A DNA stretch of 59,549 nt from Natronococcus sp. A-GB7 (GTDB lineage: Archaea > Halobacteriota > Halobacteria > Halobacteriales > Natrialbaceae), in the NCBI RefSeq assembly GCF_029688865.1, contig NZ_JARUKV010000030.1, positions 1 through 59,549 of the forward strand, given 5' to 3'. This document shows positions 13,009-22,169 of this stretch, piece by piece (positions within the stretch are counted from its first letter, which is position 1; the number at the start of each line of letters is the position of its first letter). Below the pieces are notes generated by a model that was not told where the DNA came from, searched no databases, and was given only the letters and a program-made list of their open reading frames with translations. The translations under genes were made by a program, and so were the position numbers.

Positions 13009-14724
13009 ATGCTCCGCGCGAAAGGGCCACTGCTGACCGTCGACGTCGGCGAGCGAACCGCGACCGAGACGACCATCGACGACCATCTCGAGGCGTGCGT
13101 CGGCGGTCGGGCCGTCGCGACGGCGCTGGCCCACGACCGCATCCCGTTCGAGGCGGACCCGTTCGGACCGGAGAACCGGCTCTACCTCTCGACCGGACCC
13201 TTACAGCAGTCGAAGATGTCGTTTACCGGTCGGATGAACATGACAGGGCTGTCGCCGCTGACCGACGGCCTCGTCTCGACGAACGCCGGCGGCTACCTCT
13301 CGCGGAACTTCGTCGACACGGGGATCAGCGCCCTCGAGGTCGTCGGCGAGAGCGACGAACTGCTGGCCGTCCACGTGACCGACGGCGCCGACGAGTCGCA
13401 CTCGTCGGGCGGCGAGACGGCGTCTCGCCCGCGCGTCGAGTTCGAGGCGGTTCCCGAACTCGAGGGGGCGACGGTTCCCGAAACTTCCGATTACATCGAA
13501 GAGCACCACGACCTCGGCCCCGAGCACTGCGTCGTCGTCGGGCCCGCCGGCGAGAATCAGGTTCGGTTCGCCTCCGTGATGACGTACGACCACCGGGCGT
13601 TCGGCCGCGGCGGACTGGGCGCGGTGCTGGGCTCGAAGAACGTCAAGTGCGTCACGTTCGAGGGTGAGTCAGCACCGTCGGTCGAGATTCCGGACCCGCC
13701 GGAGATGGACATCCACGGCGAGGCGGCCCAGTCCGAGGACCTGATGCGCCGACAGGGGACGACCGGCAACACCGAGATGATCAACGAGGCGTTCTCGTTG
13801 CCGACCCGGTACTTTGCGGAGTATGAGTTCGAACACGCCGACGCGATCGGCGGCGACGCCGTCGAGGAGAAAAAGTACAAGAAAGGCGCCTGTTCGGCCT
13901 GCGCGTACGCCTGCAAGCTGCCGACTCGAGACGAGGAGAGCGGGCTCGAGACGGAGGGGCCGGAGTTCGAGACGGTCTACGCCTTTGGCTCCCTACAGGG
14001 CGTCGGCGACATCGTCGACGTCATGAAGAGCAACGACCTCTGTGACACCCTCGGGATGGACACCATCTCCGCGGGCGTCACCGTCGCGGCCTACCTCGCG
14101 AGCGAGGACGAGTTCGGCAACGCCGAACTCGCCCACGACGTGACCGAGCGGATCGCCCACCGGGAGGGGATCGGCGACCTGCTCGCCGAGGGCGTCGAGC
14201 GCTGTCACGACGAGCTGGGCGTCGACAGCTACGCCGTCAAGGGCCTCGAGCTGGCCGCACACGACGGGCGCGTCCTCAACGGACAGGGGCTCTCCTACGC
14301 CGTCGCGAACCGCGGCGGCGATCACATGTACGAGTCGCGGGTGATGTCCGCCGAGTACGGCGGTCGCATCGACCCCGAGGGAACGCTCGGCAAGGCCGAG
14401 GCCCTCGTCGAGGGGGAGAACGAGGCCGCGTTCCGCGACACGGGGATCGTCTGTGCGTTCGGCAGCGGCTACGTCACCGACGAGCGCCTCGAGGCGCTGT
14501 TCGACGCCGACCACGAGGACCTCCTCGAGATCGGCGCGCGGACGGTCGAACTCGAGCGTCACTTCAACAATCAGCGCGGCTTCGACCGGGAGGACGACCG
14601 ACTGCCGTACGAGCTTCCCGACCTCGAGGCGGCCATCTCGGAGTACTACGAGGCCCGCGGGTGGAACGACGACGGGACGGTACCGTCTTCGGCGATCGAA
14701 TCGGTGGCGTCAGCCGACGACTGA
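13009..14724 (+). CDS. aor: Tungsten-dependent aldehyde ferredoxin oxidoreductase family enzyme
   Basis: 571 aa, slightly shorter than characterised AORs (about 605). The N-terminal domain contains GRMNMTGLSP and the family signature RGGLGAVLGSKNVKCV. Three [4Fe-4S] ligands are in CSACAYAC (Cys295, Cys298, Cys302) and the fourth is probably Cys482 (IVCAFGSG). The pterin motif DTLGMDTIS follows Cys345. The family oxidises aldehydes to carboxylic acids, passing electrons to ferredoxin, with a W-bispterin cofactor in the cytoplasm. The substrate is unknown. It precedes the acid-sugar operon by 428 bp on the same strand. It could supply an acid from an aldehyde, but the gap and separate promoter argue against a single operon. 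Confidence 0.93.
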   Translation: MLRAKGPLLTVDVGERTATETTIDDHLEACVGGRAVATALAHDRIPFEADPFGPENRLYLSTGPLQQSKMSFTGRMNMTGLSPLTDGLVSTNAGGYLSRNFVDTGISALEVVGESDELLAVHVTDGADESHSSGGETASRPRVEFEAVPELEGATVPETSDYIEEHHDLGPEHCVVVGPAGENQVRFASVMTYDHRAFGRGGLGAVLGSKNVKCVTFEGESAPSVEIPDPPEMDIHGEAAQSEDLMRRQGTTGNTEMINEAFSLPTRYFAEYEFEHADAIGGDAVEEKKYKKGACSACAYACKLPTRDEESGLETEGPEFETVYAFGSLQGVGDIVDVMKSNDLCDTLGMDTISAGVTVAAYLASEDEFGNAELAHDVTERIAHREGIGDLLAEGVERCHDELGVDSYAVKGLELAAHDGRVLNGQGLSYAVANRGGDHMYESRVMSAEYGGRIDPEGTLGKAEALVEGENEAAFRDTGIVCAFGSGYVTDERLEALFDADHEDLLEIGARTVELERHFNNQRGFDREDDRLPYELPDLEAAISEYYEARGWNDDGTVPSSAIESVASADD

Positions 14725-15152: not shown

Positions 15153-16415
15153 ATGAGCAGCGTACTCGTCCTCGCCGACGACTTCACGGGCGCGATGGAT
15201 ACCGGACACGGGTTCGCCGCCCGGGGCTGTGCCGTTCGGGTCGTCGTCACGGAGCCGAACGCCGACGACACAGACCGACCGTCCTCGGGTGAGTCGGACG
15301 TCCTCGCGGTCGATCTCGACACCCGCGACCTCGAGCCCACCGCCGCCTCCACGGCCGTCGCTTCGTTCCTCGAGCGTGGCCCCGTTCCAGAGGTCGTCTA
15401 CAAGAAGATCGACTCGACGCTACGTGGAAACGTCGTCAGGGAGGTCGACGCCGCCCTCGAGGCGACCGGGGCGGAGCTGGCGGTCGTCGCGCCTGCCTTC
15501 CCCGGAACCGGCCGCGTGACGGTAAACGGGCGCCACCTCGTCGACGGACGGCCGCTCGAGGACGCCGGCTACGGGACCGACTCCGATCTTCCAGCGCTGT
15601 TCGAGAGTTCCGAGTACGACGTCGCGACCCTCTCCCTGGAGAGGGTTCTCGAGGGGGCCGACGCCGTCGCGGCCGCGCTCGCCAATCGCGGACGTGACGG
15701 CCCGGAGATCGTCGTCTGCGACGCGGTCCACGATCGCCACCTCGAGGCGATCGCGGCGGGCGCCCGGCGCTGTGATCGCGAGGTCCTCTACGTCGGCAGC
15801 GGTGGGCTGGCGAGTGCAGTGTCGGTACCGGATGCGTCGCGGTCGCCCCCGGAAGCGACCCCCGAGGGCGAGAGCGCCCTCGGGATCGTCGGCAGCGTCA
15901 ACGAGCGCACGCTCGAGCAGCTCGAGGCCGTCCCCGACGACTGGCTCGTCGAACTCGATCCCGCTACGGCCGTCGCGAATCCCAGCGAAGCGGGCCGGGA
16001 CGCCGCAGCGGAACTCGAGTCGGTCCGCCGAGCGCACGGACGGGCTGTTCTCGCGGGGGCGACTACGCGAGGCGACGTGGACCGCGCGAGCGAGGTCGCA
16101 GCCGAGCGCGGCGTCGACGCGGGCCCGAGGATCGCGCGGGCGCTTGGCGTCGCGACCGCGGAGGCGACCGAGACCGATCCGCCGGCGGGACTGCTGCTGA
16201 CGGGCGGGGCGATCGCCCGAGCCGCACTCGAGGAGCTCTCTGCGAGCGCGATCGATCTCACCGGCGAGGCGGTCGTCGACGGCATTCCGGAGGGCGTGAT
16301 CGGAGACGGCCCGGCGGCGGGAACCCCGATCGTGACGAAAGCGGGCGGGTTCGGCGACCGGAGGAGTATCGTTAACTGTCTGAGTTTCCTTGCTTCGAGC
16401 GATGAGCCAGAGTGA
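15153..16415 (+). CDS. Four-carbon acid sugar kinase (DUF1537/OtnK-DtnK family)
   Basis: 420 aa from ATG 15153. The N-terminal domain opens LVLADDFTGAMDTG and contains YKKIDSTLRGNV and APAFPGTGRVTVNGRHLVDG, all hallmarks of the DUF1537 substrate-binding domain. The C-terminal nucleotide-binding domain carries LLLTGGAIARA and GTPIVTKAGGFGD. These enzymes phosphorylate D-threonate, D-erythronate or related acids at C4 with ATP. The 3' end overlaps the pdxA-like gene by 14 bp, so the two are translationally coupled. Partnership with PdxA points to D-threonate or D-erythronate; that is inference from the bacterial DtnK-PdxA2 pair. Confidence 0.92.
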   Translation: MSSVLVLADDFTGAMDTGHGFAARGCAVRVVVTEPNADDTDRPSSGESDVLAVDLDTRDLEPTAASTAVASFLERGPVPEVVYKKIDSTLRGNVVREVDAALEATGAELAVVAPAFPGTGRVTVNGRHLVDGRPLEDAGYGTDSDLPALFESSEYDVATLSLERVLEGADAVAAALANRGRDGPEIVVCDAVHDRHLEAIAAGARRCDREVLYVGSGGLASAVSVPDASRSPPEATPEGESALGIVGSVNERTLEQLEAVPDDWLVELDPATAVANPSEAGRDAAAELESVRRAHGRAVLAGATTRGDVDRASEVAAERGVDAGPRIARALGVATAEATETDPPAGLLLTGGAIARAALEELSASAIDLTGEAVVDGIPEGVIGDGPAAGTPIVTKAGGFGDRRSIVNCLSFLASSDEPE

Positions 16416-17442
16416 GCGACCAGTCGTCGCTGTAACGATGGGCGACCCCGCCGGCATCGGGAGCGAGATCGTTGCCGCCGCCTACCCGGCGTTGCTCGAG
16501 TACGCGAACCCGATCGTCGTCGGCGACGCGAGCGTGGTCCGTGCCGGCGTCGACGTCTCGGGTGCCGACCTCGAGATCGAGGCCGTCGACGCGGTCGCGG
16601 ACGCGACGTTCGCCGAGGACGCGATCCCCGTCCTCGACCTCGACGCCGTCGCCGACCTCGAGTACGGCGTCGTCCGCGAGGAGTACGGCGAGGCGAGTCT
16701 CGCGTACATCGAACGCGCGATCGAACTCGCGGTCGACGGCGAGATCGACGCGATCGCGACGGCACCGATCAACAAGCAGTCGACGCGCCTGGCCGGCAGC
16801 GAGTACGCCGGCCACACCGGGATGTTGGCCGACTACACCGACACCGAGAACTACTCGATGATGCTCGTCGAGGACGACCTCGTCGTCACCCACGTCAGCA
16901 CCCACGTCCCGCTGCGGGAGGCCTGCGAGCTGGTGACGACCGAGAACGTCCTCGAGACGATCCGGGTCACCGACGAGGGGCTGCGCGACCTCGGTATCGA
17001 GGAGCCGACGATCGCCGTTGCGGGTCTCAATCCCCACGCCAGCGACGGCGGCCTGCTGGGCGAGGAGGACGACGCCGAGATCCGCCCCGCCGTCGAGCGC
17101 GCCGCCGAGGAGGGGATCGACGTCCACGGTCCCGAGTCGCCCGACACCGTCTACGTCCAGGCCGCCCGCGGGGAGTACGACTGTGTCGTCTCGATGTATC
17201 ACGACCAGGGCCACATCCCCATCAAGACGCTGGGCTTCTCGAGCGACGACGCCGTCTCCGGGGTCAACGTCACGATCGGCCTTCCGATCGTCCGTACGAG
17301 CGTCGACCACGGTACGGCCTTCGACATCGCCGGCGAGGGGATCGCCAGCGAGGCGAGCCTGATCGACGCGGTCGAGGTCGCCGCGGAGATGGCCGAGCGT
17401 CGACGCGAACGGGACAAAGTGCCGCCGAGGGGTGAGGGATGA
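16402..17442 (+). CDS. pdxA2: PdxA-family 4-phospho-acid-sugar dehydrogenase (PdxA2-like)
   Basis: 346 aa from ATG 16402; the open frame can extend to a TTG at 16390. Motifs run in PdxA order: TMGDPAGIGSEI, TAPINKQS, GHTGMLADYT, HVSTHVPL, GLNPHASDGGLLG, SMYHDQGHIPIKTLGF, GLPIVRTSVDHGTAFDIAG. The His residues of these blocks bind the divalent metal. Haloarchaea generally make pyridoxal phosphate by the PdxS/PdxT route, so this is more likely PdxA2, which oxidises D-threonate 4-phosphate with NAD and decarboxylates it to dihydroxyacetone phosphate. It overlaps the kinase upstream and shares ATGA with the LarA homologue downstream. Confidence 0.9.
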   Translation: MSQSERPVVAVTMGDPAGIGSEIVAAAYPALLEYANPIVVGDASVVRAGVDVSGADLEIEAVDAVADATFAEDAIPVLDLDAVADLEYGVVREEYGEASLAYIERAIELAVDGEIDAIATAPINKQSTRLAGSEYAGHTGMLADYTDTENYSMMLVEDDLVVTHVSTHVPLREACELVTTENVLETIRVTDEGLRDLGIEEPTIAVAGLNPHASDGGLLGEEDDAEIRPAVERAAEEGIDVHGPESPDTVYVQAARGEYDCVVSMYHDQGHIPIKTLGFSSDDAVSGVNVTIGLPIVRTSVDHGTAFDIAGEGIASEASLIDAVEVAAEMAERRRERDKVPPRGEG

Positions 17443-18758
17443 ACCTCGAGTTCCCCGACGCCGACGTCCTGCGGGCGACCAACGACCACACCGTCGCGGA
17501 CCTCCCGCGGTTCGCCGTCGCCCGCCGCAAGCGGGAGCTCGAGTCGGTCGACGACGTCGAGGCCGCGGCCAGGGCCGCAGTGGACGAGATCGACGCCTTC
17601 GACTCGCTCCCGGCGGGTGCGGAGGTCGCCGTCACGGCCGGTAGCCGCGGGATCCACGACATGCCCGCGACGCTTGCGGCCGCCGTCGACGAACTCCAAG
17701 AGCGGGGATTCGAACCGTACATCATCCCCGCGATGGGGAGTCACGGCGGGGCGACCGCCGAGGGCCAGCGCGAGACTCTCGAGGCGCTGGGCGTCACGCC
17801 CGAGCGGATGGGCTGTGAGATCCGTTCGTCGATGGCCGTCGAGGCCGTCGGCGAGGACGCGCTCGGCCGTCCCGTCTACGCCGCGAAGGACGCCCTCGAG
17901 GCGGACGCCGTCCTCCTCGCGAACCGTGTGAAGGTCCACACAGACTTCAACGGCGCCGTCGAGAGCGGACTCTCGAAGATCGCGGTTATCGGCCTCGGAA
18001 AACATCGCGGCGCCGAATCGCTGCACAACGCCGCTATCGCCACCGAGTTCGCCGACGTGATTCAGGACCGGGCGGGGATCCTCCTCGAGGAGACGCCGAT
18101 CGTCGGCGGCATCGCCCTGCTCGAGAACGCCGCCGACCGCGCGGCCCACATCGAGGGCGTACCCGCCGCCGAAATCCCCGAGCGCGAGCCCGAACTGCTC
18201 GAGAAGGCGCGGGGCTACTTCGCGCAGCTCCCCGTCGACGACCTCGATCTGCTCGTCGTCGACGAGGCCGGGAAGGAGAAATCGGGGACCGGGATGGACA
18301 CGAACGTCCTCGGGCGGTACTCCTTCCACGGCGAGGACGAACCCGAGTCGCCGTCGATCACGCGGGTGTACGTCCGCTCGCTGACCGAGCCCTCCCACGG
18401 CAACGCCCTCGGGGTGGGCCTCGCGGACTTCGTCCACCGCGACTACGTCGCCGACATCGACTTCGAGGACACGTACGTCAACATCGTCACGAGCGGCGAG
18501 ACCGATCGGGCGAAGATACCCTTCGTCGTCCCCGACGACGCGACCGCGTTCGTCGTCGCCTGTTCGACGACCGGGATCGCGGGACCGGAGGAGCTTCGGG
18601 CCGCCAGAATCCCGAGCACGATGGAGCCCGACTCGCTGGTCGTCTCCGAACCCGTTGCCGAGGAGTTGGCCGAGCGCGAGGACGTTGAGGTCGGCCCGCT
18701 CGAGCCGCTGTCGTTCGCGGACGAACGGCTGCCGCCGGATCCGTACGGACTCGAGTAG
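17439..18758 (+). CDS. LarA homologue (DUF2088), putative nickel-pincer hydroxyacid racemase/epimerase
   Basis: 439 aa, close to LarA (about 425). It is a diverged member, but the key residues can be matched in order: Arg70 (GSRGIHD), His102 (GSHGG), His167 (VKVHTDF), Lys180 (SGLSK) and His196 (SLHN). In Lactobacillus plantarum LarA the counterparts are Arg75, His108, His174, Lys184 (covalent pincer lysine) and His200; the Lys-to-His spacing of 16 is identical. LarA relatives racemise lactate, malate or phenyllactate, or epimerise gluconate at C2. The start overlaps pdxA2 by ATGA, so it belongs to the acid-sugar operon. I infer C2 epimerisation of a four-carbon sugar acid. No larBCE cofactor genes are in the window. 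Confidence 0.8.
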   Translation: MNLEFPDADVLRATNDHTVADLPRFAVARRKRELESVDDVEAAARAAVDEIDAFDSLPAGAEVAVTAGSRGIHDMPATLAAAVDELQERGFEPYIIPAMGSHGGATAEGQRETLEALGVTPERMGCEIRSSMAVEAVGEDALGRPVYAAKDALEADAVLLANRVKVHTDFNGAVESGLSKIAVIGLGKHRGAESLHNAAIATEFADVIQDRAGILLEETPIVGGIALLENAADRAAHIEGVPAAEIPEREPELLEKARGYFAQLPVDDLDLLVVDEAGKEKSGTGMDTNVLGRYSFHGEDEPESPSITRVYVRSLTEPSHGNALGVGLADFVHRDYVADIDFEDTYVNIVTSGETDRAKIPFVVPDDATAFVVACSTTGIAGPEELRAARIPSTMEPDSLVVSEPVAEELAEREDVEVGPLEPLSFADERLPPDPYGLE

Positions 18759-19334: not shown

Positions 19335-20702
19335 ATGGTACTCTCAAACCCGCTTATACCGTTCGTTATCGGGTTGGTCATCGCGGTGGTACTGTTAGTA
19401 TGGGTGAAGCTCCCGGCGTTCGTCGGGTTGATCATCGCGGCGATGGCGATCGGGGTGGTGACGCCACAGATCGCGTTCGACGCGGTTCCCGCGCAGGTCG
19501 CCGAGTCGTTCGGCGATGTGATGGTCTCGATCGGGATTCCGATCCTGATGGCCGCGATCATCGGCAAGACCCTAATGGACAGCGGGGCGGCCGAACGGAT
19601 CGTCCGCGCGTTCCGGTCGCTCACGGGCGAGGACCAGTCCGAGTGGGCGCTGATGGGCAGTAGCTACGTGCTGTCGATTCCGGTCTTCTTCGACAACGTG
19701 TTCTTCCTCCTCGCACCGCTCGGACGGTCGATGAAGGCGCGGACGGGCGTGAAGTTCTCGCTGTACATCTCCGTGTTGTGTGCCGGGGCGCTGGCGACGC
19801 ACATGCTCGTCCCGCCGACGCCAGGTCCGCTCGCGATGTCTGCCGAACTCGACGTCGACGTCGGGCTCGCGCTCCTGGTGGGGGTCGGGCTCGCGCTTCC
19901 GACGTCGCTGCTGGGCGGGATCGTCTACGGCCGATTCCTCCACAGCCGCGAGGACTTCCCGCTCCGTGAGGCGATGGGGTCGTCCCCGGAGAGCCTCAAG
20001 GAGAAAGCGGAGACGCCGGTCGACCAGCTTCCGGGGCTGTTCGAATCCTCGCTCCCGATCGCCGTCCCGGTCGTCTTCATCGCGTCCGCGACGATCACCG
20101 ACGCTCTCTTGGGAGACGGATCGTTCGTCGCCGACCTCGCGGCGTTCCTCGGCGATCCGAACTTCGCGCTGACTGCGGCGGCGATGCTCTCCGCGTTCAC
20201 GTTCTTCCGGATGGAGATGGACGGGGACCGCTCGCTGTTCAGCGACGAACTGACCGAGTCGATCAAGTCCGGGGGGAACATCATCGCGATCACCGCGGCC
20301 GGCGGGACCTTCGGCGCGATGCTCGAGATCGCCGGCGTCGGCCAGTACATTGCCGACGGACTCGTCGACTTCGGCCTGCCGCTACTGTTCGCCGGCTGGC
20401 TCGTAGCCGCCGTGATCCGCGTCGCCCAGGGGTCGGGCACCGTGGCAATCCTCACCGGCGCCGCCATGATGGCACCGCTGACCGGCGATCTCACGGCACA
20501 CCCCGTCTACATGATGATGGCCGTCGGCTTCGGCGGGATGATCGCGCCGTGGTACAACGACAGCGGGTTCTGGACCGTCAGCAAGATCGCGGGCATCACG
20601 CAGGCCGAGACGTTCAAGACGTACTCCGTCGTCGCGACGATTATGTCCGTCTCCGGGCTGATTCTCGTGCTTGCGGCTTCGGTCGTCATGCCGCTCACCT
20701 AG
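19335..20702 (+). CDS. gntP: GntP-family acid-sugar permease
   Basis: 455 aa with about 12 hydrophobic helices. Family blocks include IPILMAAIIGKTLMDSGAAERI, SIPVFFDNVFFLLAPL, HMLVPPTPGPLAMSAEL, AAVIRVAQGSGTVA and PWYNDSGFWTVSKIAG. GntP transporters are proton symporters for gluconate and related hydroxyacids. Its place between the kinase-dehydrogenase-epimerase operon and an IclR regulator suggests that it imports the four-carbon acid used by that operon. The start is ATG 19335. Confidence 0.93.
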   Translation: MVLSNPLIPFVIGLVIAVVLLVWVKLPAFVGLIIAAMAIGVVTPQIAFDAVPAQVAESFGDVMVSIGIPILMAAIIGKTLMDSGAAERIVRAFRSLTGEDQSEWALMGSSYVLSIPVFFDNVFFLLAPLGRSMKARTGVKFSLYISVLCAGALATHMLVPPTPGPLAMSAELDVDVGLALLVGVGLALPTSLLGGIVYGRFLHSREDFPLREAMGSSPESLKEKAETPVDQLPGLFESSLPIAVPVVFIASATITDALLGDGSFVADLAAFLGDPNFALTAAAMLSAFTFFRMEMDGDRSLFSDELTESIKSGGNIIAITAAGGTFGAMLEIAGVGQYIADGLVDFGLPLLFAGWLVAAVIRVAQGSGTVAILTGAAMMAPLTGDLTAHPVYMMMAVGFGGMIAPWYNDSGFWTVSKIAGITQAETFKTYSVVATIMSVSGLILVLAASVVMPLT

Positions 20703-20717
20703 GGAACGTCGTTTCGC

Positions 20718-21497
20718 TCACCCGGAGAACTTCGTTCCAACTTCGCTTCGAAGCCGTAGTTGGACCTCGTTTGCGGTCCCCGCTGCCAGATCTGGTAGCG
20801 TCTCCGTAAAGTACTCGCCGCTCAGTCGGTTCTCCGGGCCGGCGACCGCGATCGCACCGTACAGATCCTCCTCCTCGAGGACGACCGGGCTGGCAACGGC
20901 GCGCCAGCCGTCGATGTTCTCGCCGTCGTTGAGCGCGTACCCCCGTTCTGCGATTCGTTCCCGAGCGTCCTCGAGCTCGCCGCGGGTCGTGATCGTTCGC
21001 TCGGTGTGACGCTCGAGGCCGTGCTCGGCGACGATCTCGTCGACCCGATCGTCCGGTAGCGCCGCGAGGATCGCCTTTCCGCCCGCGATGGTGTGGAGGG
21101 CGCTTCGCGTGCCGATCGAGGCGTAGGGCTGGAGCGCGTCGCGTCCGAGCCCTCTCCCGGCGTAGACGCCCCGGCCGCGCTCCTCCACGATGTACCAGAC
21201 GATCTCGCCCGTCTCGTCGGCGAGTCGCTCGAGGGCGGGCTCGACGCGATCCGCGTAGGCGACGCCGTCTCTCGCGTAGGTGCCGTGCGTGAGAAACGCG
21301 AGGCTGAGATCGTACTCCCCGCCGTCGTTCGTCAGGTACCCCAGCCGGGTGAGCGTCGTCACGTAGTCGTGGACCGTACTTTTGGGGAGTTCGAGCGCGT
21401 CGGTCAGCTCGCTCACGCTGGCCCCGCCCTCCTCGCGAATGTGCTCGAGTATTTCGAACGCCCTGGCGACGGTGGTCAGCGGCACGTCGGCTGTCAT
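20718..21497 (-). CDS. IclR-family transcriptional regulator
   Basis: 259 aa from ATG 21497; the frame extends to 21563, but the extra residues are not family-like. Residues about 10-60 form a winged helix (AFEILEHIREEGGASVSELTDALELPKSTVHDYVTTL). The C-terminal effector domain contains GRDALQPYASIGTRSALHTIAGGKAILA and GYALNDGENIDGWRAVASPV. IclR proteins bind a small carboxylic acid and repress or activate neighbouring catabolic genes. It is convergent with gntP with a 15-bp gap. Likely targets are the promoters at about 15.03 and 19.25 kb. Confidence 0.93.
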   Translation of the reverse strand: MTADVPLTTVARAFEILEHIREEGGASVSELTDALELPKSTVHDYVTTLTRLGYLTNDGGEYDLSLAFLTHGTYARDGVAYADRVEPALERLADETGEIVWYIVEERGRGVYAGRGLGRDALQPYASIGTRSALHTIAGGKAILAALPDDRVDEIVAEHGLERHTERTITTRGELEDARERIAERGYALNDGENIDGWRAVASPVVLEEEDLYGAIAVAGPENRLSGEYFTETLPDLAAGTANEVQLRLRSEVGTKFSG

Positions 21498-22169
21498 TGG
21501 GCAGTTCTGGCCCGCTCGAGTCAATAAGCGTTCCGTCTTTGTAGAGCGGTGTCGTCCGCACATTTCGGACGTCTCTTTGCTACGTCTGGCTCACCGGAGA
21601 GTGCGACTGGAGTATCGGTCTCGAACGGGCGGTAGGGCGACGGTCCGAAACGCGCGTACTCCAAGCGGCCGGAACGCTTCGGGCGCACTACGGAGGGTCC
21701 GAAATAACCGGATAAGACGGCACAAAACCGTTTGAACGGGGAGGCTCCCTGTCCACCGTAGTGCCCGTTTCCGCGAGGGAAGAACGCATGGAGGAGTCGG
21801 TCAGCGAAACAGGAGCCATCGCTTACATCCATATGGCCGTAAATCTACGTTACGGTCCGGAACTGACGGACGTGTTCACTCTCAGAGATTCCGTCCTGCG
21901 ACGGATTTTTGATCCGCAGATTCGGTCGGAAACCGCAGATGGCACCATCTGGACGGACACGTTGTCGGAGTTCTGCGAATCGGTCGAGGTATCGTCCGGC
22001 CATTCCGGACGGGCTTCGCGAGGGAGATTTGCCACAAGACGCACACGACCGTTCACGCTGCGGCGGGGGGAGAAAACACGTCGTTTCTCTTCCGGCGACC
22101 GATCGCCCGGTCGGAGCCGTCGCATCGCCCGAATCGGTCGAATCGAACGTCACGGATCCGTTGTGACTC
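21498..22169. other. Intergenic region without a recognisable gene
   Basis: 672 bp between the start of iclR and the stop of the malic enzyme. Several open frames exist on both strands (for example 21761-22228 plus and 21845-22153 minus), but none has haloarchaeal acidic composition, a familiar motif or a clear start. It may hold a decayed gene. Confidence 0.4.

Follow-up and report, generated by a model that had tools for sequence, protein, structure and literature searches.

Three overlapping genes in the haloarchaeon Natronococcus sp. A-GB7 encode a DUF1537 kinase, a PdxA-family protein and, as the third, a distant homolog of the lactate racemase LarA. The locus raises the question of whether this third protein uses the nickel-pincer nucleotide (NPN) and, if so, on which substrate it would act. 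In late 2024 the LarA superfamily gained fourteen newly reported reactions. A sequence-only reading of the window, by which we mean the whole stretch of 59,549 nucleotides that was analyzed, had ended at cofactor binding and had named neither a family nor a reaction, and the present analysis goes beyond it. The family itself is already known, being named by NCBIfam as group 22, with no substrate assigned; what we add is the clade structure, the link to DUF1537/PdxA genes, the operon link between group 22 and larE, larB and larC, the missing Asp72 and apparently missing Lys298 features and a predicted substrate.

Homology, fold and cofactor residues

The open reading frame of the LarA homolog is complete, with an ATG start, 439 codons and a TAG stop. 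The protein fits the NCBIfam model NF052515 ("nickel pincer cofactor-dependent isomerase, group 22") from end to end at 492.6 bits against a cut-off of 400, and every relative tested also scored over this cut-off. The general likeness to LarA was described as low by the sequence-only reading, and it is: the Pfam Lar_N domain (PF09861) was barely above its cut-off (23.4 versus 23.3 bits), a phmmer search of the PDB returned no LarA match, the family profile did not reach LarA in the PDB with significance, and the identity to LarA-family structures in structural alignments is 12-16%. LarA was reached by the fold search and by hhalign alone. The model of lactate racemase proper (group 1, NF033504) was not reported for the protein; among the malate racemase (LarAH5/6) models, NF052593 gave 15.4 bits against a cut-off of 500 and NF052595 was not reported. 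A DUF362 identity was ruled out, PF04015 scoring 17.9 bits against a gathering score of 24.

The AlphaFold model of the protein (mean pLDDT 86.8, pTM 0.83) has a predicted two-domain LarA fold. When this model was compared with the PDB using Foldseek, ranks 1 to 18 were all members of the LarA family (E 7.7e-11 to 6.2e-8), and the next match, at 4.6e-3, was weaker by some five orders of magnitude. VIA gave LarA-family Z scores of 18.6-20.7 over 302-330 residues, lying within residues 19-413, while the next unrelated structure had a Z score of 7.5. Structure prediction had been proposed as a check on the sequence-only reading, and the predicted fold supports it. Based on the NF052515 score, the profile-profile register described below and the fold matches, the protein is a true, though very distant, homolog of LarA.

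The five residues that had been singled out as counterparts of LarA cofactor and catalytic residues are present (Table 1). When a profile of 13 relatives was aligned with a profile of canonical LarAs (hhalign, E 1.6e-7), Arg70, His102, His167, Lys180 and His196 were all in register with Arg75, His108, His174, Lys184 and His200 of LarA, at intervals of 32, 65, 13 and 16 residues as compared to 33, 66, 10 and 16 in LarA, whose numbering was checked on the PDB sequence. This pattern is beyond chance, since shuffling the protein 20,000 times reproduced the spacing just once at the tolerance given. The same five residues are invariant in all 74 group-22 relatives, which come from haloarchaea, Bacillota, Synergistota and Thermodesulfobacteriota and share about 50 invariant or nearly invariant positions; two Roseobacteraceae relatives and a plasmid-borne Paenibacillus relative have these five residues as well. 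In the model, Arg70, His102 and His167 come after the N-domain strands 62-67, 92-97 and 157-163, respectively, and Lys180 and His196 lie on one helix. With two catalytic histidines and the cofactor ligands in place, the protein would be an ordinary LarA-superfamily member on the cofactor side.

Table 1. Positions in the window of the LarA homolog, its key codons and its neighbors
Feature	Position	Strand	Basis
DUF1537 four-carbon acid sugar kinase; 14-base overlap with PdxA start	15153..16415	+	PF07005, PF17042
PdxA-family dehydrogenase, probably catabolic (PdxA2); stop overlaps start of LarA homolog (ATGA)	16402..17442	+	PF04166, 357 bits; TIGR00557, 358 bits
Group-22 NPN-dependent isomerase, LarA homolog, 439 aa; predicted tetronate C2-epimerase	17439..18758	+	NF052515, PF09861, AlphaFold model
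Arg70 codon (LarA Arg75: NPN phosphate/substrate carboxylate)	17646..17648	+	hhalign register; 74/74
His102 codon (LarA His108, catalytic base)	17742..17744	+	hhalign; 74/74
His167 codon (LarA His174, second catalytic histidine); invariant motif RxKxHT	17937..17939	+	hhalign; 74/74
Lys180 codon (LarA Lys184, covalent thioamide tether of NPN)	17976..17978	+	hhalign; 74/74
His196 codon (LarA His200, nickel ligand); predicted helix 178-201 shared with Lys180	18024..18026	+	AlphaFold model; hhalign; 74/74
Conserved C-domain motif GTGMDTNVLGR, residues 283-293, where LarA has its substrate-binding segment	18285..18317	+	hhalign; 74-row conservation
GntP-family permease, candidate sugar-acid importer	19335..20702	+	PF02447, 308.7 bits
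IclR-family regulator that may control the cluster	20718..21563	-	PF01614, PF09339; kept in Natronococcus loci

Genes for the cofactor pathway are found elsewhere in the same genome, where LarB, LarC and LarE each scored above their cut-offs. In a survey of 293 genomes of the order, group 22 was found in 120, LarC in 232 and LarB in 226. LarB and LarC were each present in 115 of the 120 genomes with group 22 (at least one of the two in 117), as compared to 111 and 117, respectively, of the 173 genomes lacking it (Fisher p ~1e-10, a descriptive value as relatedness was ignored); some of the exceptions are incomplete genomes. LarB, LarC and a group-22 gene were also detected in Haloferax volcanii. 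Physical linkage was also observed. In one haloarchaeal genome (G135) LarB follows directly on group 22, and a plasmid of Paenibacillus cellulositrophicus carries the row uxaC, group 22, SDR, larE, larB and larC (L101:5446-11990), which suggests a 2-epimerase for a hexuronate or aldonate, encoded along with cofactor genes of its own. Plasmids of Pseudosulfitobacter and Sulfitobacter (Roseobacteraceae) carry altronate dehydratase, group 22 and an overlapping LarC (L099:5398-9456 and L100:5279-9345). Family membership was confirmed by profile for the operon-linked group-22 proteins and for one Roseobacteraceae LarC. Matches with near-identical scores recur on many Pseudosulfitobacter plasmids, from diatom-associated strains.

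Overall, the invariant residues, the exclusive fold matches to LarA, the LarB, LarC and LarE genes, the co-occurrence and the larE-larB-larC operon of a relative make it very likely that the protein binds NPN, as the sequence-only reading had predicted.

Active-site departures and gene linkage

The likeness to LarA appears to hold on the cofactor side and not for substrate recognition. LarA Asp72, an active-site feature in LarA, Mar2 and GntE2, fell in a gap of the hhalign alignment and has no equivalent; the nearest position is Ala, Val, Leu or Gly, with one Met, across the 74 rows. The Tyr294/Gln295/Lys298 segment of LarA appears to be replaced by an invariant GxGxDxNxxG in the 74 proteins, these three residues aligning to Leu, Gly and Ser in a C-domain that was aligned weakly, and Lys279, Arg293 or Arg387 could take the place of Lys298. 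Further candidates for residues standing in for Asp72 and Lys298 are Asp287, Asn289, Asn322 and Asn348, together with Glu354 and Arg357, which are specific to the clade of the protein described below. The second histidine is followed by Thr168 and Asp169, where lactate racemase has Phe175/Phe176, which suggests a polar substrate. Since neither Asp72 nor, in the profile alignment, Tyr294/Gln295/Lys298 is conserved, the substrate-side chemistry proposed below has to be inferred.

LarA of Lactiplantibacillus plantarum (5huq, 6c1w) and of Isosphaera pallida (9eia) shares with the protein the fold and the equivalents of the five residues; however, the identity is 12-14%, and the substrate-side residues of LarA named above are not kept in the alignments. 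The GntE D-gluconate 2-epimerases (groups 19/20) resemble the protein in the NPN-dependent C2-epimerization of a sugar acid that we predict for it, and 4nar was a structural match (Z 18.6), but they differ in having a six-carbon substrate, loop residues Glu and then Val or Ser, and another gene context. The 4nar structure is that of Thermotoga maritima Q9WYS3, which we take to be a GntE-type LarA homolog. Among the closest folds was the one-histidine subfamily of LarA_Sp and LarA_Bw (9q3k, 9q3j; rmsd 3.8 Å, Z 20.5), which has a similar C-domain motif, GxGMxTN, and probable carbohydrate substrates. In these proteins the second catalytic histidine is Asn, whereas His167 is kept in 74 of 74 group-22 proteins, and membership of this subfamily (group 17) was ruled out on that ground.

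In the tree of the 74 group-22 proteins, haloarchaeal members formed three clades, and the protein of the window belongs to a clade of 28 rows (support 100/99). A DUF1537 kinase and/or PdxA gene lies within 3 kb in 27 of these 28 members, in several orders and orientations and across many families, and one member has no such neighbors; the other two haloarchaeal clades mostly lack them. Conversely, a DUF1537 kinase was found in 54 of the 293 genomes and 49 of those 54 also have group 22, the remaining five being DUF1537 haloarchaea without it. Of the 59 DUF1537 matches, at least 25 have a group-22 gene no more than 5 kb away, where fewer than 0.5 would be expected within 10 kb. Independent annotations of Natronococcus sp. 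CG52 and Haladaptatus salinisoli concur on this gene context. A plasmid-borne Halarchaeum homolog with 62% identity to the protein of the window, outside the tree, has no kinase/PdxA neighbors. Bacterial group-22 genes lie beside PdxA in Paenibacillus and Synergistaceae, with no DUF1537 kinase detected nearby, and other group-22 clades adjoin MR/MLE dehydratases, altronate dehydratase, uxaC and FGGY kinases. NF052515, which the protein fits, is thus broader than the kinase/PdxA clade, and since it spans three haloarchaeal clades and bacterial relatives in differing gene contexts, a single function for the whole model is unlikely. The linkage of the clade to the kinase and PdxA genes is established by computation, as are the fold, the conserved cofactor residues and the cofactor genes.

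Within the window, the kinase scored 229 bits with the D-threonate kinase model (cut-off 450) and 107 with the 3-oxo-tetronate kinase model, both below cut-off, and the PdxA protein scored 306 bits with the D-threonate-4-phosphate dehydrogenase model (cut-off 583). Because both miss the equivalog cut-offs for D-threonate, no D-threonate specificity is assigned to them in Natronococcus sp. A-GB7. A role of this PdxA in vitamin B6 synthesis was ruled out, since no PdxJ was found in the genome. A GntP permease lies near the cluster, in either orientation, in the scanned Natronococcus-group loci and some others, and is not beside the cluster in Natronococcus sp. CG52. A gene of the aldehyde ferredoxin oxidoreductase family (13009-14724, plus strand) lies upstream of the operon and is retained in some Natronococcus loci only. 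The GntP, IclR, aldehyde ferredoxin oxidoreductase and UspA genes vary between loci and were rejected as core pathway genes. A malic enzyme gene lies 3.4 kb downstream of the end of the LarA homolog. A promoter/terminator scan, whose scope does not cover archaeal promoters, gave little beyond a single weak site resembling a promoter, on the minus strand.

Proposed reaction and competing readings

The conserved overlapping pathway genes narrow the candidate substrates to a small set. In 2016, Zhang et al. (cited in PMC10580937 and PMC9997740) reportedly described a DUF1537 kinase and PdxA2 that take D-threonate via its 4-phosphate to dihydroxyacetone phosphate, and the C2 epimer of D-threonate is D-erythronate. 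The three-gene cluster resembles this pathway in that the genes of the kinase and the PdxA-type dehydrogenase overlap each other and the LarA homolog. To our knowledge, the D-threonate pathway as described has no NPN epimerase, and none was found for it in the literature searched. LarA homologs are known to epimerize 4-deoxy-threonate/4-deoxy-erythronate and gluconate/mannonate at C2 (PMC11770544), and the mechanism described for NPN enzymes is a proton-coupled hydride transfer, served by two histidines, through which 2-hydroxyacids are inverted at C2 (PMC7583248, PMC11851776, PMC12611868, PMC11770544).

We propose, with a probability of roughly 0.6, that the protein is an NPN-dependent tetronate C2-epimerase feeding the DUF1537/PdxA route. 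That its substrate pair is specifically D-erythronate and D-threonate has close to an even chance. Somewhat short of even odds, we would place the clade in an as yet unassigned NPN branch dedicated to four-carbon sugar acids, in which a D-erythronate/D-threonate 2-epimerase is joined to DUF1537/PdxA2 in haloarchaea and operates without LarA's Asp72 and Lys298.

From these data we infer the loading of nickel and NPN, the epimerization, the identity of the substrate and the order of the steps, as follows. NPN would be made by LarB, LarE and LarC, whose genes lie elsewhere in the genome, and be tethered as a thioamide by Lys180; His196 would be the fourth nickel ligand, and Arg70 would hold both the substrate carboxylate and the phosphate of NPN. 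The 2-OH would lose its proton to one of the two histidines, His102 and His167, and regain one from the other, in alternation, and with the hydride of C2 passing to the pincer and returning from it, C2 would be inverted. The substrate in this clade would be a four-carbon sugar acid, most likely interconverted as D-erythronate and D-threonate, and the product would be phosphorylated by the overlapping DUF1537 kinase, after which the PdxA-type enzyme would oxidize C3 and decarboxylate to give dihydroxyacetone phosphate. Since the C2 center is lost in this final decarboxylation, the epimerase would let both C2 epimers into one pathway.

Several other readings share part of this evidence. The same operon and residues would fit an NPN-dependent C2-epimerase that acts after the kinase, on 4-phospho-D-erythronate and 4-phospho-D-threonate; from what is generally known of these families, PdxA-type enzymes use the 4-phospho form, and a kinase that accepts either C2 configuration is conceivable. 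However, Arg163 and Lys165, both basic, do not vary anywhere in the group, not even in members beside altronate dehydratase and uxaC whose substrates are likely unphosphorylated, and Arg357 is the sole constant basic residue that the clade adds in its C-domain, so we consider action on the phosphorylated form quite unlikely. It is unlikely, too, that the enzyme is an epimerase or racemase for another 2-hydroxyacid, such as malate, glycerate, gluconate or another aldonate, with the kinase/PdxA link reflecting a related substrate or shared regulation. The nearby malic enzyme, the gluconate-type GntP permease and the dehydratase, uxaC and FGGY kinase neighbors of other group-22 clades would speak for such a role, but the malate racemase model scored 15 bits against its cut-off of 500, and outside the Natronococcus-group loci the malic enzyme adjoins just one locus, in another clade. 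The kinase/PdxA linkage, by contrast, spans many families. Malate racemase itself was ruled out on the model score and on this nearly confined neighbor.

Against the tetronate epimerase reading speak the scores of the kinase and PdxA below the D-threonate cut-offs and the exceptions to the linkage, namely the clade member and the Halarchaeum homolog without kinase/PdxA neighbors and the five DUF1537 haloarchaea without group 22. The reading also has to be weighed against departures from NPN-dependent epimerization as such. With Asp72 missing and no conserved equivalent of Lys298 in the profile alignment, NPN might serve a different hydride-mediated reaction on a sugar acid, e.g., one-way epimerization, redox or elimination, and reactions of this kind are raised in PMC7583248, the 2020 superfamily paper, which also considers that groups missing some catalytic residues (His174 and Lys298 are named) may not invert a stereocenter. 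Such a reaction is improbable here, as the 74 proteins keep the NPN ligands and the pair of catalytic histidines without exception, unlike the one-histidine subfamily (PMC12611868). Least of all do we expect that the fold alone is shared and NPN is not used, the protein being DUF362-like or working with another cofactor: many homologs are publicly labeled DUF362 domain-containing and the overall identity to LarA is low, but the DUF362 model stayed below its cut-off, the five residues are invariant, LarB/LarC co-occur with group 22, and larEBC and larC operons exist.

No group-22 enzyme with a tested activity or substrate was found in the literature searched, nor was a tetronate 2-epimerase or a triplet of kinase, PdxA and group 22, although the supplementary tables of PMC7583248 may list some of this context. 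If the tetronate epimerase reading is true, the nickel-pincer cofactor would gain a new biological role, in tetronate catabolism of halophilic archaea, together with a new reaction, and the active-site variant would test the need for LarA's Asp72 and Lys298. It would also correct the labels "DUF362 domain-containing protein" and "lactate racemase domain-containing protein" on such genes.

Other LarA homologs and group-22 genes

Public records tag many group-22 homologs as "DUF362 domain-containing protein"; the member in the window is below the DUF362 cut-off. The genome of Natronococcus sp. A-GB7 encodes a second group-22 paralog (L058:8529-9851, contig C10; 491.7 bits) with about 46-48% identity to the first, which falls in another clade and adjoins genes for an acyl-CoA dehydrogenase and a metal-transporting ATPase, not kinase/PdxA. 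It also encodes a canonical LarA homolog with a D-x-T-R motif (L001:847-2106, contig C20), which scored best with malate racemase models, far under their cut-off (251 versus 462 bits). In two other genomes (L067 in G166 and L068 in G190), group-22 genes occur as adjacent tandem pairs near homologs of MR/MLE-type dehydratases, which suggests two epimerases for one sugar-acid pathway. A cluster of homologs of a 2-hydroxyacid dehydrogenase, an aldolase and an FGGY kinase lies beside group 22 both in a haloarchaeon (L059:4437-9858) and in a Eubacteriaceae MAG (L052:5556-12444). In Paenibacillus piri (L057:8004-9259), the group-22 gene is seemingly split into two open reading frames, by a frameshift or a sequencing error.
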